IMG/VR virus record: IMGVR_UViG_3300021437_000027
Span: 1-50,422 of that record
Strand: one strand, 5' to 3'
Length of the DNA: 50,422 bases
From: a virus
Part shown: positions 915-50,422 of the stretch, piece by piece
How positions within the stretch are numbered: position 1 is the first letter of the stretch
How the letters are laid out: each line of letters opens with the position of its first letter
Notes under the pieces: model-generated
Database searches by the model: none
The model's input: only the letters and a program-made list of their open reading frames with translations
Told to the model about the DNA's origin: nothing
Program-made: the position numbers and the translations under genes

Positions 915-1273
915 GCGAGACCCCCAGGCATGGCGGCGCGCGAGAAGGGGCCGGCGCACCGAGCGGCCCGCGTCAGCCGCCCAGCGAAGACAAACAGGAC
1001 TTTGACCACTGGCGGGCGCGCAGCGAGCGCGCCAAGGCGCTGCAGGCCGAGCTTGACCTGGGTGTGGCGGAGGGCCGCCTGGTGAACCGTGATTCGGTGC
1101 AGGCGGCCAGTGCCACCCTCCTGGCGGTGTTCACGCAGCACTGCCGCGGCATCGGTGACACCCTTGAGCGCACGCTGGGCTTGGCGCCCGAGGCCGCCGC
1201 CGCCATCTCCACCGAAATTGACGAGGCCCTGAGTGTGCTGGCCGACGACCTGAAAAAGATGGCCAATGGATGA
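911..1273 (+). CDS. terS: Terminase small subunit (probable)
   Basis: The 120-aa protein lies directly before terL and overlaps both neighbours (ATGA at 911-914 and 8 bases at 1266-1273). The N-terminus carries a basic Gly-rich segment (HGGAREGAGAP) like that at the start of many phage small terminases. The middle and C-terminus are helical and resemble Nu1-type oligomerisation regions (DSVQAASATLLAVF ... ALSVLADDLKKMA). It should bind the packaging start site and recruit TerL. No full winged-helix DNA-binding domain is obvious, so the assignment rests mainly on position and overall resemblance. Confidence 0.7.
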   Translation: MSETPRHGGAREGAGAPSGPRQPPSEDKQDFDHWRARSERAKALQAELDLGVAEGRLVNRDSVQAASATLLAVFTQHCRGIGDTLERTLGLAPEAAAAISTEIDEALSVLADDLKKMANG

Positions 1274-4200
1274 CTTCACGATTGCCCTGGGCGACGTTTG
1301 CTCGGGGTATGAGGCCCTGCGCCCGCCCAACCGTGTGACCGTCAGCGAGGGCATCGCCCAAACGCTCTACATCAAGCGCCCGGGTGGCGCCGCCGGCTAC
1401 TGGAACCCCGCCGAGACCAATTACATGGTTGAACCGGCGGATATGCTCGGCAGCCGGCGGCACGGCGCTGTGTGCTTTGTCGGCCCGGCGCAAACTGGCA
1501 AGGCGCTTGATGTAGATACGCCCATTCCAACCCCCGCCGGCTGGACACGCATGGGAGACCTCGTAGCTGGGGATGTGGTGCTTGGCGACGACGGCTACCC
1601 GTGCAAGGTGCTCGCCGCTCACGCGGTGCAACTCGATCGGCCCTGCTATCGCGTTGAATTTTCAGACGGCACGAGCATCGTGGCCGACGATGAACACCTT
1701 TGGACAGTTGATCGGTTCTATTGGGGCGCACCGAACTGGCGCGAGGTCACGCTGACCACCGCACAGATGCGGAAGCAGGGCGCGATTTATGGCGGCAACC
1801 GTCAGCGGTTCCACCTCCGCAACACCGATCCTCTGGCCCTGCCAGTGCTGGCCTTGCCTGTAGACCCATACGTGCTGGGCGCGTGGCTTGGAAACGGCAC
1901 CGCGCGCACAGATGTGCTGTCGTTTTGGGATCGAGACCTACCCCACTACGTCGAGGCTTTCCGGCGCGGCGGGCAGCACGTCGAGGCATCCAAGGACGGC
2001 CCGAATACTGTGTGGATGCGTGCGCCCGATCTTGCGCCCCTGCTGCAGGGCCTAGGCGTTCTCGGCAATAAGCACATCCCGCCGCAGTACCTGCGCGCCT
2101 CCTACACCCAGCGCCTGGCCCTACTGCAGGGTCTTATGGACACGGATGGATACCCGGGAATCGAAGGCAAGTCGGCAGTGGAGTTTTCCACGGTCATTGA
2201 CCGGCTGAAAGACGAGTTTCTAGAGTTGGCCCGCTCTCTCGGGCTGCGCCCCGTGGCGGCGCGCAAGGAAACTACTTGGACGCACGCAGGAGAGCGTCGA
2301 TATGGCGTGGCGTGGCGCGTCACGTTCTCCGTGTATCCGGGCCTGCCCGTGTTTCGACTGCCGCGAAAGGCAAGCAACTTCCAACCAGCAGAGAAGGATG
2401 TTCGACACCGCGGCATTGTCGCCATCACCCCGGTGCCGTCGCGGCCAGTCCGCTGCATCCTCGTGGACAACCCACGCCACCTGTTTTTGGCAGGGCCGGG
2501 CATGGTGCCCACCCACAACACTGTCGCTCTGGTAGACGGCTGGCTAGCCCACGCCGTGGCCAACGACCCCGGCGATTTCCTGTGCGTCCAGATGACCCAG
2601 GACAAGGCGCGTGAGTACAGCAAGCAGCGGGTGCAGCGCATGCTGCGCAACAGCCCCAAGCTGGCTGCCCTGAAGGGGCCGAGCGGCAAAGATGCCACCA
2701 TCCACGATTTCCTGTTTCGCCACGGCATGTGGGCCAAGATCGCATGGCCAACGGTTACCAACCTGTCGAGCACGAGCTACCGCTATGTGGCCATCACCGA
2801 CTACGACCGGATTGCCGACGATATTGACGGCGAGGGTGATGCGTTCACGCTGGGCCGCAAGCGCACGACCACGTTTCTGAGCCGCGGCATGATTGCGGTG
2901 GAGTCGAGTCCCGGCCGCCCGGTCACCGACCCCCACTGGCGCCCAGCCACACCGCACGAGGCACCACCAGTCAATGGCATCCTGGGTATCTACAACCGAG
3001 GGGACCGACGCCGGTGGTACTGGCCCTGCCCGCACTGCAAGGAATTCCACGAGGCGGCCCCGGGCATCGATATATTTGGCCTGCCCAGCACTGAGGAACT
3101 ACTGACCACCATCCGCCACATCAACATCGACAAGATGGCCAGGCAGTACGCGCGAATCCCCTGCCCGCACTGCGCCGCAGAGATTGGGCCTGAGCACAAA
3201 GACTGGATGAACCGCAGCGGGGTCTGGTTGCCCGATGGCGTCAAGATCGATACCCAGCGCCGCATGAGCGGCGAGGCCCGCACCTCGGACATTGCCAGTT
3301 ACTGGCTCGGCGGTGTGGCCGCCACCTATATCTCGTGGGAAATGCTGCTGCGCAAGCACCTGCAGGCCCTGCTGGAATTCGCCCTCACCGGCAACGAGTT
3401 GGCCTGGCAGACCACAGTGAACACCGATCAGGGCGGCCCGTACATGGCCAGGGCGCTCGCTGCGGCCCAGGCCGCCACCAGCCCCTCAGACCGCAAGGAT
3501 GCGAGCCTGCAGCGGTTCATCTGCCCGCCCTGGACGCGGTTCCTTGTGGCCTCAGTGGATGTGCAGGGCGGCATCGGCGCGCGGTTTGTGGTGCAGGTGC
3601 ACGCCATTGGTCCCTACCAAGAGCAGGCCCCTGTTGACCGTTACAACATCACAGAGAGTTTTCGGGATGGTGTGGGCGGCAAGGCCCCGGTAGACCCGGC
3701 CAGCTACGCAGAGGATTGGGACTGCATCACCGAACGGGTGCTGCGCAGCACCTACCGCATTGAGGGCCGCGATGACGAATTGCGTGTGCACCTCGTGGTG
3801 GTGGACACCGGTGGTGAGGGCCGCAAGGGCAAAAAGCAGGAGGGCGTCACCGAGCGTGCCTATGAGTGGTTCCGCCGCATCCGCCGCGAGGGTGAGCGCA
3901 AGCGGGTGGCCATCATCAAGGGCACCGGCCAGAAAGTTGACTGGTATGTGCGCCCCACCAAGGTCGGCGGCAAGGCCGGGCAGGGCGATGTGCCGCTGCA
4001 CCTGCTCAACTCCAACCTGCTCATGGACGCGGTGGACGCCAGTTCAAAGCGTGAGAGCGGGCCGGGTGCGCTGCGTTTCCCCGACTGGCTCACACCAGCC
4101 TGGTTTGAGGAATTCAGCGCCGAGGTGCGCAACGCCGATGGCACTTGGACACAGATTCGGGCCCGCAACGAGAGCGCCGACCTGTGCAAGTACGTGCGCG

Positions 4201-4421
4201 CCGGCTGCCTCATCCTGGGCGTGGACAAGTGGAAGGATTGGGACAATGTGCCGGCCTGGGCCCTGCCACTGGATGCAGGCAACGCCGGCCTCATCAGCGC
4301 CGACGCCCGCCGCGAGATGCGTGACAACGAGCGCATCGCCACCACGCCCCTGGCCACACCGGCGCAAGAGGCACCCCGGGCCTTCCCGCAGCGCCGGTCA
4401 ACGCCCTCCAACTACCTCTAG
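1266..4421 (+). CDS. terL: Terminase large subunit (GpA type) interrupted by an in-frame intein
   Basis: The 1051-aa precursor encodes a packaging ATPase-nuclease of the lambda gpA type (Terminase_GpA). Removing residues 80-418 (the intein) leaves 712 aa, close to the usual family size. The Walker A loop reads GPAQTGK-[intein]-TVALVDGW. Downstream are a Walker B-like strand (YRYVAITDYDRI), two CPHC zinc-type pairs and the C-terminal nuclease region. The protein would translocate DNA into proheads and cut concatemers, and cannot bind ATP properly until the intein is removed. Its stop overlaps by 4 bases, tail to tail, a small gene on the other strand. Confidence 0.92.
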   Translation: MDDFTIALGDVCSGYEALRPPNRVTVSEGIAQTLYIKRPGGAAGYWNPAETNYMVEPADMLGSRRHGAVCFVGPAQTGKALDVDTPIPTPAGWTRMGDLVAGDVVLGDDGYPCKVLAAHAVQLDRPCYRVEFSDGTSIVADDEHLWTVDRFYWGAPNWREVTLTTAQMRKQGAIYGGNRQRFHLRNTDPLALPVLALPVDPYVLGAWLGNGTARTDVLSFWDRDLPHYVEAFRRGGQHVEASKDGPNTVWMRAPDLAPLLQGLGVLGNKHIPPQYLRASYTQRLALLQGLMDTDGYPGIEGKSAVEFSTVIDRLKDEFLELARSLGLRPVAARKETTWTHAGERRYGVAWRVTFSVYPGLPVFRLPRKASNFQPAEKDVRHRGIVAITPVPSRPVRCILVDNPRHLFLAGPGMVPTHNTVALVDGWLAHAVANDPGDFLCVQMTQDKAREYSKQRVQRMLRNSPKLAALKGPSGKDATIHDFLFRHGMWAKIAWPTVTNLSSTSYRYVAITDYDRIADDIDGEGDAFTLGRKRTTTFLSRGMIAVESSPGRPVTDPHWRPATPHEAPPVNGILGIYNRGDRRRWYWPCPHCKEFHEAAPGIDIFGLPSTEELLTTIRHINIDKMARQYARIPCPHCAAEIGPEHKDWMNRSGVWLPDGVKIDTQRRMSGEARTSDIASYWLGGVAATYISWEMLLRKHLQALLEFALTGNELAWQTTVNTDQGGPYMARALAAAQAATSPSDRKDASLQRFICPPWTRFLVASVDVQGGIGARFVVQVHAIGPYQEQAPVDRYNITESFRDGVGGKAPVDPASYAEDWDCITERVLRSTYRIEGRDDELRVHLVVVDTGGEGRKGKKQEGVTERAYEWFRRIRREGERKRVAIIKGTGQKVDWYVRPTKVGGKAGQGDVPLHLLNSNLLMDAVDASSKRESGPGALRFPDWLTPAWFEEFSAEVRNADGTWTQIRARNESADLCKYVRAGCLILGVDKWKDWDNVPAWALPLDAGNAGLISADARREMRDNERIATTPLATPAQEAPRAFPQRRSTPSNYL
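1503..2519 (+). other. Class 3-type intein with degenerate LAGLIDADG endonuclease domain
   Basis: Residues 80-418 of the TerL precursor (339 aa) begin with Ala rather than Cys/Ser and end PTHN, followed by Thr of the Walker A motif. Block A is DVDTPIPTPAGW; block B is ADDEHLWT, with His144 and Trp146; block F contains Cys397 (RCILVDNP); the end carries Thr416-His417-Asn418. Ala1 plus this Trp-Cys-Thr set is the hallmark of class 3 inteins, in which the block F Cys is the first nucleophile. Between them are two LAGLIDADG-like helices: LGAWLGNGT (204-212) and LLQGLMDTDG (286-295). The first has Asn where the catalytic Asp is expected, so splicing is probably intact but homing is doubtful. Confidence 0.9.

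Positions 4422-4920: not shown

Positions 4921-4921
<1 letters not shown>
4700..4921 (+). CDS. Head-tail joining protein, gpW-like
   Basis: The 73-aa protein resembles lambda gpW: an N-terminal helix (ADIDALNAAIASGE), a beta hairpin (RQVVIGGESITYN), a second helix (TDSLIRARNDLLAQLNAA) and a basic C-terminal tail ending in an aromatic residue. gpW is needed to stabilise DNA-filled heads and form the tail-binding surface. Gene order terL-gpW-portal is that of lambda. There is no Shine-Dalgarno; instead CCGCC-ACTAT-GGCGG (4692-4706) puts the start codon in a small hairpin loop. Its stop overlaps the portal start (TGATG). Confidence 0.8.
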
Positions 4922-6810
<1,889 letters not shown>

Positions 6811-15137: not shown

Positions 15138-18100
15138 ATGGCGACCAATGCCCGCGACGTTAGCCTGACCATCAAGGCCAACACCTCGGGGGAGGGCGAA
15201 ATCAAGGCCCTGGCCACGCAGGTCAGGGCCCTGGGCAAAGCAGGCACCGACGCCGCCCCCGAGTTTGAGCGGCTGGCCACGGAGCTTGACACGCTCGCCG
15301 GGCAAGCCCGCACCGTTGACAACTTCAAGGCGCTCACCGCCGAGGTGGACGCGGCCGGTGCAGCCCTGCGCAACTCGGCCACGATTGCCGAGGGCGCCGG
15401 TGCCGCCTACCGCCAGCAGGCCGCCGCCACCAACGAACTGCGTGATGCTCAACGAAAGGCCGCCGATGAGGTGGTTCGCGTCAAGGGCGCGCAGGACGAT
15501 GCCCGGGATGCCCTGCGCCGCCAGCGCCTGGAGGCGAGCGCGGCTACCAAGGACACTGACGAGTACGCCGCATCCGTCAAGCGGGCCAAACTCAACATTC
15601 TTGACCTGGGCACCGAACTGCGTGCCAAGCGCAAAGACCTGTCCGAGGCAACTGCCGCCACGCGCGAAGCAGCCAAGGAGGAAAGCACTCTCGCGGACGC
15701 CCACCAGCGAGCCGCCAAAAGCCTGGCAGAAAATCAGGCCGCCGAATCCAAGCGGTCGAGCGCACTGCGCGAGGCTGCAGAGGCCGCCCGCCTTGCCGGT
15801 GTCAATGTGGCCGACCTCACCGGTGAGGAAAGCCGACTGGCCAGCACCCTCACCACCGTGGTTGCCGCGGCTGAGAAAAACCGCGTCGGGATGCTGGAAG
15901 CGGCGGACGCTGCTGAGAAGTTGGCACAGGCCACTGCCCAGGCCGAGCGGTCTGAGCAGGCCCTGGCGGAAATTCGCAAAGTCGCCTATCAGCAAAACAA
16001 CGCGGCCAAGATCAAGGCGGAGGCGGAGGCGGCGCGTGACCTCGCCCAAGCCCAAGCCCAAGCCGAGAAGTCTGAGCAGGCCCTGGCGGAAATTCGCCGT
16101 TTGGCCTACCAGCAGGATGCTGCCGCCAAGATCAAGGCCGAGGCCGAAGCGCAGGCCCTGCTCAATACCGAGCAAGCCCAGGCCGAGCGAATCCAGACCG
16201 CGCTGGCCAATATCCGTCGTATCGCCTACCAGCAGAACACTGCTGCGCAGATCAAGGCCGAGGCCGACGCCCTCCAGCAACTGGCCGCCGCCGCCCAACA
16301 GGCTGCCGATGCACTGCCCAAGGCGTTCGGCCAGGCCGGCGTGCGCAGCGTGGCCTTGATCCAGGCTGAAATCTCGCAGACCGGCCGGGCGCTCACATAT
16401 CTTGAAGCGCAGTTCAAGGCGGGTGCCATCAGCGCCTATGACCTCCAGCGTGCCACCGGCTCAGCCGCGGCCCGCATGCAGCAACTGCGTGAGGAAATGC
16501 AGCAACTGCCGGCAGCCACGGGGCTGCTGGAGCGCATGAATGCATCGGTGCTGTCGTTGGTCAACCGCTTTGGTGCACTGAGCGCTGCGGTGGCCACGGT
16601 CGGCTTTGCAGTCAAGCCCATCCTTGACGCCAATATCGCCCTGGACAGCATGCGCCGCGTGCTCACCACGGTCTACGGGTCCGCCGCAGAAGCAGGCAAG
16701 CAAATTGATTTTGTGCGCCGCGTGTCCGAGGCCGCCGGCCTGAACGTGACCACCACTGGCGAGGCGTTCACCAAGTTCGCTGCTTCGGCAAAAAGCGCAG
16801 GGGTTAGCACTGACCTCGTGCAGCGAGTTTTCGAGTCCACCGCCAATGCTGCCGGCAACCTGGGCCTGAGCAGCGACAAGGTGGGGAACATCCTCAATGC
16901 CCTGAGCCAGATGGCCAACAAGGGCACGGTCAGCATGGAGGAACTGCGCGGCCAGTTGGGCGAGTCGTTGCCCGGCGCACTGTCTCTGCTGGCCAAGGGC
17001 TTGGGCATCACCGAGCCCCAACTTGTCAAGCTGGTCGAGTCGGGCAAGCTGCTCACAAGCGAGGCCCTGGGCCCCCTGGCCAAGGCGATGGACACGCTTG
17101 CTGCCCCTGGCGGCCGCGTGGAAGGCCTGCGTGCGTCGATGGAGCGCCTGGGCAACAAGTTCGTTGAGGCGTACCGGCAGATCGGCGACTCGGGAGCGGT
17201 CAAGGCCCTCGGCGCGGTACTGGACGGCTTGGCCAGCAACTTCGGTGTGGTCAGCAAGGCCGCCGTGGTGATGTTCGAGGCCCTGGCCATCAGCAAGTTG
17301 CTGGCCCTCGCGTCCAATTTCCTCGGCCTCAAGGCGGCCACCGATGCAGCCGCAGCCGCAGCACTGCGCTCGGCCGAGGCGTCCACCGCAGAGGCTGCAG
17401 CGTCTACCCGCGCCAGTGTGGCCGCCACCGAGAAGGCAGTCGCCACGCGCGCCGCCGCTGTTGCGTCCGATATTGCGGCTGCCGCCGCAGTGCGCAATGC
17501 CGCAGCCCAAACTGCTGCAACTGCAGGAATGACCACGGGGGTCACGGCGGCTGCCGTCGCCGCCAATACCCTCACGGTTGCCAAGGGGGCGCTTGCTACT
17601 GCCGGGGCCCGAGTCCTGGCAGTGATGGGTGGGCTGCCCGGCCTGCTTCTGGCTGCCGGGCTGGCCATGATTCAGTTTGGCCCCGCCATCCTGAAAGCTG
17701 CCGCCGGCATGCTCGGGTTCGGTGATGCTGCCAAGCAGGCAGCCGCGTACACCAAGTACCAGGCCGAGCAGACAGCACTGGCCGCCAAAGAGCATGGCGC
17801 GGCCGAGGCGTCCCTGGTCCAGGCAAAGGTGCGCTATGGGGAACTCGCACATTCCCTGAACGAGGCCACTGTCAACGCTGAGAAGCACGTCAAGGCAGTC
17901 AAGGATGTGGGCGACGCCAGCGTGGCTGTCGCCGACCTGACGGGTCGTGAGAGCGACAAGCTCCAGGCCACTGCAAAGGCCCGTGCCGACAACGTGGTGG
18001 CGCTGGAGGCAGAGGCCAAGGCACGCAAGGCCGAGGCTGTTGCCACCGAGGGCCTGGTGACGCGCATGGAGCGCGAAATCGCCGTCAAGGGCAGCCTGTT

Positions 18101-26399: not shown

Positions 26400-26757
26400 C
26401 CAGCGCCCACACAGTGGATACCGCACGGCGCTTTTTCTCGCGGTGGCGGGTGTTGTGCTCAGTGCGGGTCAGCTTGGGTGGTTTGATCGCGTCCTTATGC
26501 GACCCGACAGCGTAGACCGCCCGCGTGTGGATGCCGGTGGTGTCGTCATCGCGCCGCCACGACTGGATATAAATTTGCTTGAGCTTGCGAGTGCGCGTAC
26601 CTTTGACACCACGGCACCTCGGGGTAAACCACTGAGCGTGCAGGTAAGACGCCAGCGTGCGGACATACCCCGCTGAGAAGTCCACCGCCTCGGCCATCTC
26701 CTGCGTGGTCATCGGCTGGTCGGCCAGCAGTGCCAGCAGTTGCTCTACTTGGGTCAT
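26320..26757 (-). CDS. Winged-helix/HTH DNA-binding protein downstream of DNA polymerase
   Basis: The 145-aa product has an N-terminal HTH of MarR/winged-helix style (VEQLLALLADQPMTTQEMAEAV, then YVRTLASYLHAQ recognition-like helix) followed by a basic region (GVKGTRTRKLKQIYIQSW) and a basic C-terminus. It overlaps the polymerase stop by ATGA, so it is the last gene of the leftward replication operon. Its 3' end overlaps the holin gene on the other strand, which could produce antisense interference between early and late transcripts. Confidence 0.65.
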   Translation of the reverse strand: MTQVEQLLALLADQPMTTQEMAEAVDFSAGYVRTLASYLHAQWFTPRCRGVKGTRTRKLKQIYIQSWRRDDDTTGIHTRAVYAVGSHKDAIKPPKLTRTEHNTRHREKKRRAVSTVWALAIPLDDRRLTARVRSRPTASLPPALP

Positions 26758-29153
26758 GCTTTCACGTACCTCGGGCCTTCCCAACCCCCGGCGGCGCTGA
26801 TCGGCCAACCCTCGGCCCAGGCCGGCAGCCGGGCCATGATCGCCTCCAGTTCCTTGACACTTCCCAAGCCAATGGGCACCTCGGCCACCACCTCGTCGTA
26901 GGTGTGCATCACGATGGGGTAGCCGGCCTGCTCCAGCAGGTGGATGGCGTTCATCTGAATATCGCGTGCCGTGGCCTGCACCACGTTCTCGCAGAGCCGG
27001 CCCCCGTATGTGTTCATCCGCTGCCAGCCCATTGCCCCGTTCTTGGGGTTGCTGTTCCAGCCCTCGAAAGACAACTGCAGGCCGCGCCAAGATTCGGTAG
27101 CCTGGGTGATGCGCGGCCGGTGGTAGGCGATGCTGCGGCCCGAGCGCAACGTGCAGTGCAGCACATCACCCTGGCACTGGTAGGAGATGCCCGAGGGTTG
27201 ACCATCCAGGCGCAGCACCTGCTGACGCTCACCCGGGCGCTGCACCGCCTGCAGGGCCATGCCCTCCAGGCCGAACATGCATGGCGACCAGCGACCACGC
27301 GGGCCCAGGTTCTGGCCACCCCACAGGTGCACCAGCGCCGGGCTCGCATCGCGCCACTTGAGCACGGTGTCCTTCAGTTCGTCGTCGGTGCCATCCACAC
27401 CGAACTGGCGCAGCGCGGTAATCCAGCCACCGAACCCCAGGCCAAGCTCACCGCCTTTGCCCTTCTGACGCAGCGGGTGGTGTTTTCCGTTTTCCTTGGC
27501 GTAGGTCACCATTTCGGCCACGGGCACCCCGAACATCCGTTCAGCCGATAGAAGGTACATCGGGGCGCCTTGAGCGTAGGCATCGATGCGCCACTGCTCA
27601 CCGGCCAGCGCCGCCACCACCACGCCCTCGATCGCGGTGAAATCGCTGCTGACCAGGCGTGTGCCAGGCTTGGCGATGAACAGCCCTCGCAACACCCCGG
27701 CCACCGCCGCCATCGCATCGGCCATGACGTGCTCGACGTAGGCCAGTGATCTGCTGTGCAGCACCGCCAGAGCGTCCTCGGCGGCCTCGGGGCTCCACTC
27801 GTCGGGCTTGCGGCCCGGCGGGCACGGGAAGCGGCACCAGGGGCACTCCACGGCGTCCGGTCGGTGCCTGTGGCCGCAGTGCTTGCAGCGCACCACCGGT
27901 GGGCCAGAGCGTGGCAGATTGGTCGGTTGCGGCCCGCTGCCGGTGGGACGCCCCGTGCGAGCACCGGCCCACAGATAGAGGTCGTGCAGCCGCCCATCGG
28001 GAGACAGCATGTTGCGCATCGCAAAGACTTTTTTGACCGACGCACTGCCCACCGCGGCGCGGATTTCCAGCACGCGGCGAGCTACCGGCGGCAGTTCCAG
28101 CTTGAGGGCGGTATCTACCGCGTCCTCATCGAGCCCATCCATGTGGACGCCCAGCCCGTGCAGAAAGCCAACGATCTGCGCGACCTTGCTGGCCGCGTCG
28201 ATACCGGTGAGGGCTTGCAGTTCGGCGTTGTACTGCTCGTGCGCCTGCTCGATGATCGAGATGCAGGAGTGCATGGCGGCCACATCGATGGCCACGCCAC
28301 GCCGGTTGATCGTCTGGTCATCCTGCCAGTAGCCGAGTTCAACCGGGTCGAGGTCGGGGATGAGCCCGCTGGCCTCGGCCTCGGCCGCAATGTCGGTCTC
28401 GTTGTAGTCGAGCAGGCGCAGCGTGTCGGCGTGATCCTCGGCCAGCACCTTGAGCCACTTGACGTGCGCGCGGCCCCACTGCTTGGCTTCGTAGCCCGGG
28501 AATTCCTCAGTGGAATATTGGAGGGCTAGGGCCTCGGCCTCCTGGGGCGTCCACACCGGCAGCACCCACAGGCGGTGGTCGGCCTGGGTGGGGTTACGCG
28601 GCTGCGAAAACTTGTCGAGCAGGCGCTTGCCGTCGCTGTCCTTCTGCGTGCGCAGGGCCAGCACCGTGCCGGCGTTGTCCAGGCCGCCGGGCAGGCAGTA
28701 GCTGCGGGCCTTGGCCATTGCGCAGCGCCATTGGTGTGGCTGCACCGCCGGCCAGCCCATGCGCGCGTGGCAGACCCAGGCCCAAATTTGCCACTCAAAA
28801 CCCACGTTCCACGCCTCCAGCAGCTTGCCGGCCTGAATGTGGTTGAACAGGTCGATGGGCTCGGGCAGCCCGGGGCGCCACCGGCGCCGGCCCTGGCCAT
28901 CCTTGAGGTCGTAGGCGAGAGTCAGCACCCTAGTGCTCGGGTGGCGCGCGTAGAGGGCCGCGCCGACCGTGGGCAGGCCCCGCTTGGCAGCGTTGGGAAG
29001 CGGGCACCACTTGCGATCCTGCGGCTGCCACACGGCACCGGCCTCGCTGGCGGTCTCAAAGTCCAGATCGGCCAGCACCTCGGCGTATGACAGGCCGGCG
29101 ATGAGGCGCTGGCCCGCTGACCAGGCCGGTGGGGGAAGGGGTAGCGCGCTCAT
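26754..29153 (-). CDS. DNA polymerase I-type (family A) with 3'-5' exonuclease
   Basis: The 799-aa replicative polymerase starts at ATG 29153, overlapping the previous stop. An N-terminal DEDDy-like exonuclease domain has DLDFE (motif I), a NVGFE segment where motif II normally has Asp, and YNETD (motif III). The polymerase domain has motif A SSDFTAIE, motif B RQKGKGGELGLGFGG and motif C TYDEV, which shows Tyr where family A enzymes usually have His. A zinc-ribbon-like insert (CKHC...CPWC) separates the two halves. Together with the primase-helicase at 44.3 kb it forms the phage's own replisome. Confidence 0.9.
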   Translation of the reverse strand: MSALPLPPPAWSAGQRLIAGLSYAEVLADLDFETASEAGAVWQPQDRKWCPLPNAAKRGLPTVGAALYARHPSTRVLTLAYDLKDGQGRRRWRPGLPEPIDLFNHIQAGKLLEAWNVGFEWQIWAWVCHARMGWPAVQPHQWRCAMAKARSYCLPGGLDNAGTVLALRTQKDSDGKRLLDKFSQPRNPTQADHRLWVLPVWTPQEAEALALQYSTEEFPGYEAKQWGRAHVKWLKVLAEDHADTLRLLDYNETDIAAEAEASGLIPDLDPVELGYWQDDQTINRRGVAIDVAAMHSCISIIEQAHEQYNAELQALTGIDAASKVAQIVGFLHGLGVHMDGLDEDAVDTALKLELPPVARRVLEIRAAVGSASVKKVFAMRNMLSPDGRLHDLYLWAGARTGRPTGSGPQPTNLPRSGPPVVRCKHCGHRHRPDAVECPWCRFPCPPGRKPDEWSPEAAEDALAVLHSRSLAYVEHVMADAMAAVAGVLRGLFIAKPGTRLVSSDFTAIEGVVVAALAGEQWRIDAYAQGAPMYLLSAERMFGVPVAEMVTYAKENGKHHPLRQKGKGGELGLGFGGWITALRQFGVDGTDDELKDTVLKWRDASPALVHLWGGQNLGPRGRWSPCMFGLEGMALQAVQRPGERQQVLRLDGQPSGISYQCQGDVLHCTLRSGRSIAYHRPRITQATESWRGLQLSFEGWNSNPKNGAMGWQRMNTYGGRLCENVVQATARDIQMNAIHLLEQAGYPIVMHTYDEVVAEVPIGLGSVKELEAIMARLPAWAEGWPISAAGGWEGPRYVKA

Positions 29154-29770
29154 TCCTGCCGCAGACCGTTGCGAGCGGCACACATCGCCTCGTTGCTGAC
29201 CGCGACACCACTGAGAATCGTGGTCAGCACGTCATCGGCCGCAGTGTGGGCGCTCTGCACGCGCTCCAGCTTGTTGGCCAGTTGCTCAAGGTGCTCGACC
29301 AGGGCCCGCACTGGTACACCGGGCCTGAAGACGGTTCCGCTGTTCCGACCGACCGAGACGGTTACATCCAGCGGAGCATCGAGGACACCCCGAGGTGCGG
29401 GGGCCAGCCACCCGTGTTGATCCGTCCAGCAGTAGCCCATCCCTTCCAAGATGGTGGCCGCCTGTGAGGGGCACGGCACGCGGGCGTCCACGTAGCGCCC
29501 GGCCAGCGCATCGGCGGCAGCCAGGCGCGCGTGGGCGGCCACAAGGTTGGCCACCACGGTGTTCTCGGCGGCGCGGGCGTCATCCCGCGAGGCCCACCAT
29601 GCATGGGCGTCAGCGTGGGGGCCACCCGAGACCTTGCTGGCCAAGGTAGCACGGTCGAGCGCAGCAGCGGTCATGCTCAGCCACTCGTCTGCAGTGAACG
29701 GTTTATCGTGATGTACTTCCCCTCCGTAAGTGCTTGATTCGTCACGGGGCGGTTTGTAAGCGTGCGGCAT
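29150..29770 (-). CDS. Hypothetical protein upstream of DNA polymerase
   Basis: The 206-aa protein is helical and Ala-rich (TADEWLSMTAAALDRATLASKV, ENTVVANLVAAHARLAAADALAGRYVDARV, VPVRALVEHLEQLANKLERVQSAH). A short central segment (ILEGMGYCWTDQHGWLAP) looks like a small beta insertion. AGGA lies 9 bases before ATG 29770. Coupling to the polymerase by ATGA overlap suggests a replication accessory role, but no family is recognised. Confidence 0.6.
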   Translation of the reverse strand: MPHAYKPPRDESSTYGGEVHHDKPFTADEWLSMTAAALDRATLASKVSGGPHADAHAWWASRDDARAAENTVVANLVAAHARLAAADALAGRYVDARVPCPSQAATILEGMGYCWTDQHGWLAPAPRGVLDAPLDVTVSVGRNSGTVFRPGVPVRALVEHLEQLANKLERVQSAHTAADDVLTTILSGVAVSNEAMCAARNGLRQE

Positions 29771-39536: not shown

Positions 39537-39573
39537 AATAGCGAAAAAAATAGCGGGCTAATTTTTCGCTATT
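39537..39573. promoter_or_regulatory. AT-rich 12-bp inverted repeat between the divergent early promoters
   Basis: AATAGCGAAAAA (39537-39548) and TTTTTCGCTATT (39562-39573) are exact inverted copies with a 13-base loop. It lies between the leftward and rightward operators and overlaps the first bases of the rightward one. It could bind a regulator, act as a bidirectional terminator or help unwind the region. Confidence 0.5.
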
Positions 39574-39600
39574 GACGGTTGCGTCAGAAATAGCGAGACT
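39571..39600 (+). promoter_or_regulatory. Rightward early promoter with operator
   Basis: ATTGAC-GGTTGC-GTCAGA (39571-39588) supplies TTGACG as -35; after 17 bases comes GAGACT (39595-39600). Transcription would start only about 4 bases before the helicase ATG at 39611, suggesting a leaderless or nearly leaderless mRNA. The helicase gene lacks a clear Shine-Dalgarno, which fits. Confidence 0.55.
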
Positions 39601-39610
39601 CGCGGCGCCC

Positions 39611-41230
39611 ATGCCTACCCACTCACTTCGCTACTACCAGCACGACCTCGTGGTCGGCGTCAAAGCCGCCTGGTCGCGGGTTCGCAACGTCCTTGCCGTG
39701 TCGGCCACGGGCAGCGGCAAAACCGTGGTGGTGGCCAGCCTCATTGCCGATGAGCCCGGCGCGTCTTGTTTCATCGCCCACCGCACTGAACTGGTCTCAC
39801 AGGCCAGCATCGCCCTGGCGCGCGAGGGGATCGTGCACCGGGTCATCGGCCCGGACAGCCTGCGCCGCAACTGCGCCGCCATCCATGTGGCCGAGTTCGG
39901 CCGCAGCTTCTACGACCCCAACGCACGCACCGCAGTTGCGGGGGTTGACACACTCGTGCGGCTGCCGGAGTCCGACCCTTGGCGGCATCAGGTGCGCCTG
40001 TGGGTGTGCGACGAGGCTCACCACCTGCTAGAGCAAAATAAGTGGGGCACCGCCGTCACCCTGTTCCCCAACGCTCGTGGCCTGGGTGTGACCGCCACGC
40101 CCATGCGCGCCGATGGCAAGGGGCTGGGCCGCCACGCTGACGGGCTGATTGACGAGATGGTGGTGGGCCCACCGATGCGCCAGTTGATCGACGAGGGCTG
40201 GCTGACCCGCTACCGGGTCTTTGCGCCGCCCTCAGACCTTGACCTGACTGCCGTGGCGGTATCGGCCAGCGGCGACTACTCGCCCGAGCCACTGCGCAAG
40301 GCGGTGCACCGCAGCCACATCGTGGGCGACGTGGTGGCCCACTATCTGCGCATCGCCCGGGGTAAGCTGGGCATGACCTTCTGCGTGGATGTGGAAGGGG
40401 CGACCGAGACCGCCGAGGCGTTCCGCGCCGCCGGCATCCCGGCCGAGGTCATCAGCGGCAAGACGCCCGAGCTTGAGCGGGCAGCCATCATGCGCCGGTT
40501 CCGCTCGCGGCAGGTGCTGCAGATCGTCAGCGTGGACATTCTTGGCGAGGGCACCGATGTGCCTGCTGTCGAGGTGGTCAGCATGGCGCGGCCAACGCAG
40601 TCCTATGGGCTCTATGTGCAGCAGTTCGGCCGCGGTCTGCGCCTCATGGACGGCAAGGAATTTGCGCTCATCATCGACCACGTTGGCAACGTTCAGCGCC
40701 ACGGGCTGCCCGATGCGCCGCGCCGCTGGTCGCTCGATCGACGCGAGCGCCGTGCTGCGGGCCCGCGTGACGCAATCCCGCTGCGCACCTGCCTGAACAC
40801 CGATTGCGTGAGCGTCTACGAGCGCCTGCTGCCGGCCTGCCCGTTCTGCGGCACCGTCGCGCCGCCACCGGCCACGCGGGGCTCACCGGCTCAAGTTGAT
40901 GGTGACCTGGTGGAACTGACGCCCGAGGCGCTGGACAGGCTGCGGGGCGAAATTGAGCGGGTGGACGGTGCGCCGGTGCTGCCCTATGGTGCTGGCCCCG
41001 CAGCCGCTGGATTCGTCAAGCGCCACCACTGGGAGCGCCAGCAGGCCCAGGACACGCTGCGCAAGGCTATCGCTGCTTGGGGTGGCCTCATGGCGGCCAG
41101 GCGCGGCCTGGACACCTCGCAGCAGCAAAAACTTTTCTTCTACACCTTTGGGGTCGATGTGGGCACTGCTCAGACGTTGAATGCTGCGGATGCGGATGCA
41201 CTGCGGGCTCGGGTGGAGGGGGCCGCGTGA
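39611..41230 (+). CDS. SF2 DEAD/DEAH-type helicase
   Basis: The 539-aa protein has a superfamily 2 helicase core: SLRYYQHDLV (Q-motif-like start), Walker A SATGSGKT, DEAH box (CDEAHHLL), motif III (VTATPMRADG), and motifs V-VI (SVDILGEGTDVPAVE, QQFGRGLRL). A C-terminal zinc-ribbon-like pair (CLNTDC...CPFCG) and a helical tail follow. Such helicases help replication-fork restart or recombination in phages. ATG 39611 is chosen by domain start. It overlaps the methyltransferase start (GTGA). Confidence 0.9.
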   Translation: MPTHSLRYYQHDLVVGVKAAWSRVRNVLAVSATGSGKTVVVASLIADEPGASCFIAHRTELVSQASIALAREGIVHRVIGPDSLRRNCAAIHVAEFGRSFYDPNARTAVAGVDTLVRLPESDPWRHQVRLWVCDEAHHLLEQNKWGTAVTLFPNARGLGVTATPMRADGKGLGRHADGLIDEMVVGPPMRQLIDEGWLTRYRVFAPPSDLDLTAVAVSASGDYSPEPLRKAVHRSHIVGDVVAHYLRIARGKLGMTFCVDVEGATETAEAFRAAGIPAEVISGKTPELERAAIMRRFRSRQVLQIVSVDILGEGTDVPAVEVVSMARPTQSYGLYVQQFGRGLRLMDGKEFALIIDHVGNVQRHGLPDAPRRWSLDRRERRAAGPRDAIPLRTCLNTDCVSVYERLLPACPFCGTVAPPPATRGSPAQVDGDLVELTPEALDRLRGEIERVDGAPVLPYGAGPAAAGFVKRHHWERQQAQDTLRKAIAAWGGLMAARRGLDTSQQQKLFFYTFGVDVGTAQTLNAADADALRARVEGAA

Positions 41231-42318
41231 GCAACATTCGGGATTGGGGCGTGTTCCGCCTGTACCGGGGAGATAACCTGCAAGTGCTGCGGTCTCTGCC
41301 TGACAATTCGGTTGATTCCATCGTGACCGACCCGCCCTATGGGTTGTCGTTCATGGGCAAGAAATGGGACTATGACGTGCCGCCGGTTGAGACCTGGGCA
41401 GAGTGCTTGCGGGTGCTCAAACCCGGTGGCTACCTGCTCGCTTTTGCGGGTACGCGCACCCAGCACCGCATGGCTGTCCGTATCGAGGATGCAGGCTTTG
41501 AGATTCGGGATATGATCGCCTGGGTGTACGGGTCGGGGTTCCCGAAGTCGTTGGATGTTTCAAAGGCGCTGGACGCCGCCACCGACGCAGCCCCCCAGTG
41601 GCAGGGGTGGGGAACCGCCCTCAAACCTGCGCTAGAACCCATCACCGTGGCGCGCAAACCGCTGATTGGCACAGTGGCGGCCAATGTGCTGGCCTGGGGT
41701 ACTGGCGCGTTGAATATTGACGAGTGCCGCGTGGAATCTGAGGCCGGGGGGCGGCCACTTCGTGTGGTTGCACCGCTGCGCGATGGCGTGCAATACGCAG
41801 GAAACGCACTTGCTGGACGACTGGACGGCAGCCTGGCCTCAAGCGTTGCGGCCGGTTCGACTGAACGGGGCCGCTGGCCAGCGAACCTAATTCACGATGG
41901 GAGCGACGAGGTGCTGGCCGCGTTTCCGCAGGCGCAGGGTCAGCAGGGCCGTGCACGCACCGATGGCGCCGACCAGGGGAACAACACTTTTGGCGCCTTG
42001 AAACACATCACCAATCGGCCCGACCCTCGTGGCGACACGGGCAGCGCCGCCCGGTTTTTCTACTGCGCCAAGGCCAGTAAGAACGACCGAGGTGAAGGCA
42101 ATACCCACCCCACCGTCAAGCCGACCGATCTGATGCGATACCTCGTGCGCCTGGTCACACCGCCGGGGGGCACTGTGCTTGATCCGTGGATGGGTTCGGG
42201 CAGCACCGGCAAGGCAGCAGTTCCCACCGGGTTCAAGTTCATCGGTATCGACCGAGACGACTGGCTCGACCTTGCAGAGCGGCGCATTTCTGTGGCCGCT
42301 TTTGGTTGCGCCGCATGA
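41227..42318 (+). CDS. DNA N6-adenine/N4-cytosine methyltransferase
   Basis: GTG 41227 lies in the helicase stop overlap. The 363-aa enzyme has the catalytic motif TDPPYG (residues about 35-40) ahead of the SAM-binding motif (DPWMGSGSTGKAAV near the C-terminus), i.e. the beta-class order of N6_N4_Mtase enzymes. The middle region (WQGWGTALKPALEPITVARKP) is typical of phage members. It would methylate phage DNA, either against host restriction or for regulation. No cognate restriction enzyme is present. Confidence 0.9.
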   Translation: MSNIRDWGVFRLYRGDNLQVLRSLPDNSVDSIVTDPPYGLSFMGKKWDYDVPPVETWAECLRVLKPGGYLLAFAGTRTQHRMAVRIEDAGFEIRDMIAWVYGSGFPKSLDVSKALDAATDAAPQWQGWGTALKPALEPITVARKPLIGTVAANVLAWGTGALNIDECRVESEAGGRPLRVVAPLRDGVQYAGNALAGRLDGSLASSVAAGSTERGRWPANLIHDGSDEVLAAFPQAQGQQGRARTDGADQGNNTFGALKHITNRPDPRGDTGSAARFFYCAKASKNDRGEGNTHPTVKPTDLMRYLVRLVTPPGGTVLDPWMGSGSTGKAAVPTGFKFIGIDRDDWLDLAERRISVAAFGCAA

Positions 42319-50241: not shown

Positions 50242-50360
50242 ACCGGCGAGGATTTTCAAAATCGGTCGCCCGGCCGCCGCCTGGCCGCCGCCTCTCGGGT
50301 CACCGGCCAGCACCACGAGCTAGGGAGGGCGGGCGGCGCAGGCTGCCGGGGGGTCGGCCC

Positions 50361-50420
50361 CTGCGGGCCCAGCGTCGCCCCTGCGGGCCCAGCGTCGCCC
50401 CTGCGGGCCCAGCGTCGCCC
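50361..50420. repeat. Three tandem 20-bp GC-rich repeats at the window end
   Basis: The unit CTGCGGGCCCAGCGTCGCCC is repeated three times without change and the window stops in the next copy (CT). Each unit has the palindrome GGGCCC. About 120 bases before it have no recognisable gene. If the window ends meet, the repeats lie upstream of terS and could be terminase binding sites (cos/pac-type iterons); a repeat-caused assembly break is the alternative. Confidence 0.8.
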
Positions 50421-50422
50421 CT

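Follow-up and report, generated by a model that had tools for sequence, protein, structure and literature searches.

The terminase large subunit gene of the virus analysed here carries a 339-residue insert in its Walker A motif, and by far the best explanation is that a cis-splicing class 3 intein has become fixed in the P-loop of a GpA-family enzyme. The sample is IMG/VR record IMGVR_UViG_3300021437_000027, positions 1 to 50,422, and this whole stretch of 50,422 bases is termed the window; the terminase gene, its parts and its two neighbours lie on the plus strand. The precursor, intein included, is encoded by an ORF of 1051 residues (1266-4421) with no frame break. Both domains of a GpA-family terminase large subunit are present in the exteins. 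Pfam GpA_ATPase is matched with an E-value of 9.6e-65 in two stretches with the insert between them, and GpA_nuclease (E 1.8e-52) lies downstream of the split ATPase domain. The gene is preceded by that for the terminase small subunit (911-1273; phrog_57, E 4.7e-13) and followed by that for a lambda-type portal protein (4921-6810; Pfam Phage_portal_2, E 1.5e-103), the usual packaging order. The window also encodes a major head protein and a tape measure protein.

Other features of the window were noted. A run of about 14 GCA/CAG repeats (6339-6381) encodes a polyglutamine stretch within the portal protein, and a 120-base repeat of 2.8 copies (15936-16267) lies within the tape measure gene. A perfect 20-base tandem repeat of 3.3 copies (50357-50422) runs off the end of the record and may be an assembly end effect. 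An ORF of 809 residues on the minus strand (26754-29183), oriented opposite to the structural genes, gives a weak DNA polymerase A match of 29.5 bits, below the Pfam cut-off. A DNA methylase gene (41077-42318; N6_N4_Mtase, E 1.8e-29) adjoins a ResIII/Helicase_C ORF (39572-41230).

The intein, a HINT splicing domain with an inserted LAGLIDADG domain, was delineated with phmmer, profile and model comparisons and occupies positions 1503-2519. It comprises precursor residues 80-418 and is placed between Lys79 and Thr419 of GPAQTGK^T. The N-extein (1266-1502, 79 residues) ends with the GPAQTGK part of the Walker A motif; the C-extein (2520-4421) begins with Thr+1 (Thr419, codon ACT, 2520-2522), which is also the Walker A threonine. 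These boundaries derive from the codons and from alignment with the intein-free terminase of Curvibacter phage PCA1, which shares 55.8% extein identity with the window and reads GPARTGKT at the site, the motif that removal of the insert restores as GPAQTGK|T. An earlier note on this DNA, made from the letters alone, had given the same span, placed the insertion between the lysine and threonine of Walker A, and listed an alanine at the first position, a tryptophan two residues after the block B histidine, Cys397 and a Thr-His-Asn end. The span agrees exactly with the ORF, PCA1 matches across the same site, and the residues are all as listed when read codon by codon. Ala1 (A:1, Ala80; 1503-1505, codon GCG) leaves the intein without an N-terminal nucleophile. 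Block B provides His65 (B:10, His144) and Trp67 (B:12, Trp146) at 1695-1703, Cys318 (F:4, Cys397; 2454-2456) is the predicted initiating nucleophile, and the intein ends with Thr337-His338-Asn339 (G:5 to G:7, Thr416-His417-Asn418; 2511-2519).

The sequence match to a solved class 3 intein, that of the Mycobacterium smegmatis DnaB protein (DnaBi1, PDB code 6bs8), is far beyond chance, with a phmmer E-value of 1e-34. It consists of two collinear ungapped blocks, residues 1-72 and 305-339, in which Ala1, His65, Trp67, the F:4 cysteine and the Thr-His-Asn end are in register, Cys318 aligning with Cys118 of DnaBi1. The published positions of His65 and Trp67 in the M. smegmatis intein carry the same numbers as in the window (PMC5222942). 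In a comparison alignment of 98 distinct inteins, a set of relatives of the window intein rather than a census of class 3, the B:10 histidine, F:4 cysteine, G:5 threonine, G:6 histidine and G:7 asparagine are invariant and Trp B:12 is found in all except one (97/98). The class 3 type claimed in the earlier note hinged on the cysteine and tryptophan occupying F:4 and B:12, and alignment to class 3 inteins puts them precisely there. With Trp B:12, Cys F:4, Thr G:5 and no cysteine, serine or threonine at position 1, the window insert has the residues that define the class, and Thr+1 is one of the two residues, serine or threonine, usual at that position. The assignment as a class 3 intein is thus supported, and the splicing chemistry would be that of the studied members (PMC5222942, PMC7664689).

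Might the class 3 appearance be superficial, the intein in fact belonging to class 1 or class 2? The near relatives in Acidovorax phage ACF1 and in a locus labelled L040 have a cysteine at position 1, and class 1 and class 3 marks therefore occur together in the lineage. In the window, however, Ala1 excludes class 1 initiation, the Trp-Cys-Thr (WCT) signature is complete, and sequence comparison with solved structures gives class 3 inteins as the nearest matches. We consider such a resemblance extremely improbable and set it aside on the residue evidence of Ala1, WCT and the register with 6bs8. The ACF1 (L001, 460-1512) and L040 (718-1902) inteins themselves combine Cys1 with the full WCT signature.

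An AlphaFold model of the intein, calculated from 57 sequences, has a mean pLDDT of 96.4 and a class 3-like HINT fold. Superposition on 6bs8 gives a Z-score of 22.2 and an RMSD of 1.1 Å over 125 aligned residues with 57% identity. DnaBi1 resembles the window intein in its splicing fold, WCT signature, DxxH motif, Cys48 and F:4 cysteine, and in its P-loop site, but differs in being a mini-intein without an endonuclease, in its helicase host and in having serine at +1. The yeast VMA intein PI-SceI is a class 1 intein that matches the whole HINT plus LAGLIDADG architecture, with a Z-score of 28.7 over 323 residues and a profile match of E 2e-16. The inserted domain contains both LAGLIDADG motifs (blocks C and E), and its modelled fold matches those of PI-SceI and I-DmoI.

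The proposed route begins with translation of the whole precursor and folding of the HINT domain. Cys318, helped by His65 and Thr337, would attack the Lys79-Ala80 peptide bond to give the branched thioester of class 3, and the N-extein would then be passed to Thr+1. Cyclization of Asn339, aided by His338, would be accompanied by joining of the exteins, restoring GPAQTGKT. The +1 nucleophile doubles as the Walker A threonine, and the P-loop must therefore be rebuilt by splicing; until then the ATPase would be without a proper one. Published P-loop inteins, for which RadA is cited, provide the basis for a requirement of splicing for ATP binding (PMC6195587), and these together with the insertion site indicate that packaging very probably needs splicing. 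Need for splicing need not imply a switch. The terminase (TerL) inteins of mycobacteriophages splice readily in Escherichia coli reporters (PMC5050341) and endonuclease-bearing class 3 inteins have been suggested to splice constitutively (PMC7891396), which makes fast maturation the default expectation; in the window, splicing is most likely a fast constitutive maturation step.

It is also conceivable that the intein is dead or dying and does not splice, leaving a non-functional terminase gene, as might happen in a prophage undergoing decay. Class 3 inteins that have decayed are known, Arth_1007 being one (PMC3196547), and the window intein has lost one endonuclease aspartate. Arth_1007, however, lacks Cys F:4 and His B:10, both of which the window intein has. 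No splicing residue has been lost, the reading frame is open throughout, the matches to both extein domains are strong, and genes for the small subunit, the portal, the major head protein and the tape measure protein accompany the terminase. We judge a dead intein very improbable and dropped this reading on the intact splicing residues, retaining that of an intein competent to splice.

Could splicing nevertheless be conditional? The earlier note had suggested that packaging might vary with the rate of splicing. DnaBi1, which also occupies a P-loop, forms a Cys48-Cys118 disulfide on treatment with H2O2 and its splicing is inhibited in vivo (PMC6195587). The window intein has a counterpart of the redox-trap cysteine, Cys48 (1644-1646), placed by the ungapped 6bs8 alignment with its role taken from that study, and Cys48 and Cys318 occupy the same positions as Cys48 and Cys118 of DnaBi1. 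Cys48 was called non-conserved in the DnaBi1 study (PMC6195587); here it is present in 85 of the 98 inteins compared and in all 17 that occupy the Walker A site of GpA terminases. On our analysis the Cys48-Cys318 pair is the only concrete basis for conditional packaging. Oxidation might then form a Cys48-Cys318 disulfide that blocks splicing, such that active terminase would arise in a reducing cell only, which would give the suggestion in the earlier note a mechanism. Against this, DnaBi1 lost the ability to splice with each of the Cys48 substitutions tried (PMC6195587), and the conservation may therefore be structural or catalytic alone; 13 of the 98 inteins lack the residue, and the mycobacteriophage TerL inteins splice readily. 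We regard oxidative control as improbable. The broader proposal, that GpA P-loop class 3 inteins serve as redox gates with packaging awaiting a reducing cytoplasm, and that repeated change of the endonuclease aspartate marks inteins kept for gating and not for homing, is offered as speculation that we hold to be slightly more doubtful still. Constitutive maturation remains the preferred reading.

The LAGLIDADG domain would once have mobilized the intein. In block C (motif 1) the window sequence is WLGNG, and the profile alignment and codon place Asn131 (1893-1895) where PI-SceI has the catalytic Asp218; in block E (motif 2) Asp215 (2145-2147), the counterpart of PI-SceI Asp326, is intact. Both aspartates, Asp218 included, are described as critical in PI-SceI (PMC1508164), which, unlike the window intein, retains the pair. 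With a catalytic aspartate in one of the two motifs and Asn131 in the other, the window domain is not described here as an active homing endonuclease and, because of that replacement, double-strand cleavage and homing have probably been lost. The block C aspartate is kept in 92 of the 98 inteins and absent from six. Residues other than aspartate are commoner among the GpA Walker A inteins (4/17) than in the remainder (2/81), with a Fisher p of 0.008 that is descriptive only, the inteins being related to one another and the two groups having been defined once the data had been inspected. The ACF1 intein also has asparagine in block C, specified like that of the window by the codons GGA AAC GGC, whereas L040 has aspartate. 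Nevertheless, ACF1 groups with L040 at 100/98 support and a clade of the window with ACF1 is rejected (p-AU 0.0225). A single loss in an ancestor of the window and ACF1 inteins was therefore set aside in favour of either parallel loss or reversion in L040.

The endonuclease regions of the window and ACF1 are still 53% identical, and the domain may keep some role, for example in support of the fold or in nicking, for which the replacement of aspartate by asparagine does not account. An alternative is that the endonuclease is active, Asn131 being tolerated or the enzyme acting as a strand-specific nickase, and that the intein still homes. Asp215 and Lys190 are intact, the domain is modelled at high confidence and ACF1 has asparagine in a domain that is still well conserved. 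The predominance of aspartate at this position among the 98 inteins and the critical role described for PI-SceI Asp218 argue the other way; we think continued homing unlikely, though it merits consideration, and favour its loss.

Class 3 inteins were found at the Walker A site in 17 GpA terminases, including those of the window and ACF1, and Pfam GpA domains were confirmed for the 15 others. Between the window and ACF1 the intein (54.3% identical) and the extein (53.4%) have diverged about equally. The intein tree gives full support to a clade of the window, ACF1 and L040, which three other members (L072, L078 and L119) adjoin with support of 80. In the extein tree these two groups are again neighbours, with support of 88 and with the empty PCA1 terminase lying within the first, and the inner order of the window, ACF1, L040 and PCA1 group is poorly resolved. 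Intein and terminase thus share this grouping, and the simplest reading would be that the intein has resided in this lineage of terminases for a long time and was lost or gained at least once near PCA1. Given the poorly resolved inner order of the exteins and a join to the neighbouring three with only 80-88% support, transfer of the intein within the window, ACF1, L040 and PCA1 group may also have occurred. A survey of 398 genomes, taken from the phylum to which a Defluviimonas genome belongs, gave intein matches in 6, and a single scan of genome contigs returned one intein-free GpA terminase.

Three loci depart from the pattern. One of the 17, the GpA terminase on an Endozoicomonas sp. Mp262 plasmid (CP092490.1; L038, 943-3497), holds its class 3 intein in a deviant Walker A motif, GAQVGG^T, and its frame is broken shortly past the intein, pointing to either an error in sequencing or a disrupted gene. 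The class 3 intein in the GpA terminase of a viral contig (L086, 3015-6239) interrupts the ATPase domain outside Walker A, at a second site that reads SGNTTLHK^TFAGG. In L041 (366-3851) a terminase with a GpA_nuclease match, and none to GpA_ATPase, is interrupted at PRGSGK^T by a class 3 intein that also lacks the block C aspartate.

How does the window intein compare with those already described? Class 3 inteins are common, with 1701 in the nr database of which 82.5% have LAGLIDADG motifs (PMC7891396). Inteins of type TerL1-a lie between the Walker A lysine and threonine of mycobacteriophage terminases, but their hosts belong to the Terminase_1 family and that of the window to GpA (PMC5050341). 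The same survey of mycobacteriophages recorded inteins in terminase_1, terminase_6 and the terminase-like Pham3880 only, and none in GpA-type terminases (PMC5050341). The terminase intein of mycobacteriophage Henry (L030), which judging from its site is of type TerL1-a, shares the WCT signature, the GK^T position and the LAGLIDADG domain with the window intein. Among the closest known counterparts is that of ACF1 (MZ547449.1, Acf1_00088), about 54% identical, in the same GpA terminase, at the same GK^T site and with WCT and block C asparagine, but with Cys1 in place of Ala1; neither the ACF1 record nor the ACF1 paper mentions an intein. Our literature search found no papers on inteins in GpA-type terminases.

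The window intein is therefore of a type already known, here in an additional family of hosts, since Walker A inteins between lysine and threonine are already published for other terminase families. It extends the host range of P-loop class 3 inteins to GpA-type terminases, 17 of which carry one at the same site. As some of these related inteins keep the block C aspartate and others lack it, the group provides material for studying the loss of homing. With Cys48 retained in most of the relatives, one can test whether splicing that responds to redox state is a property of the class as a whole or special to the mycobacterial DnaB intein.
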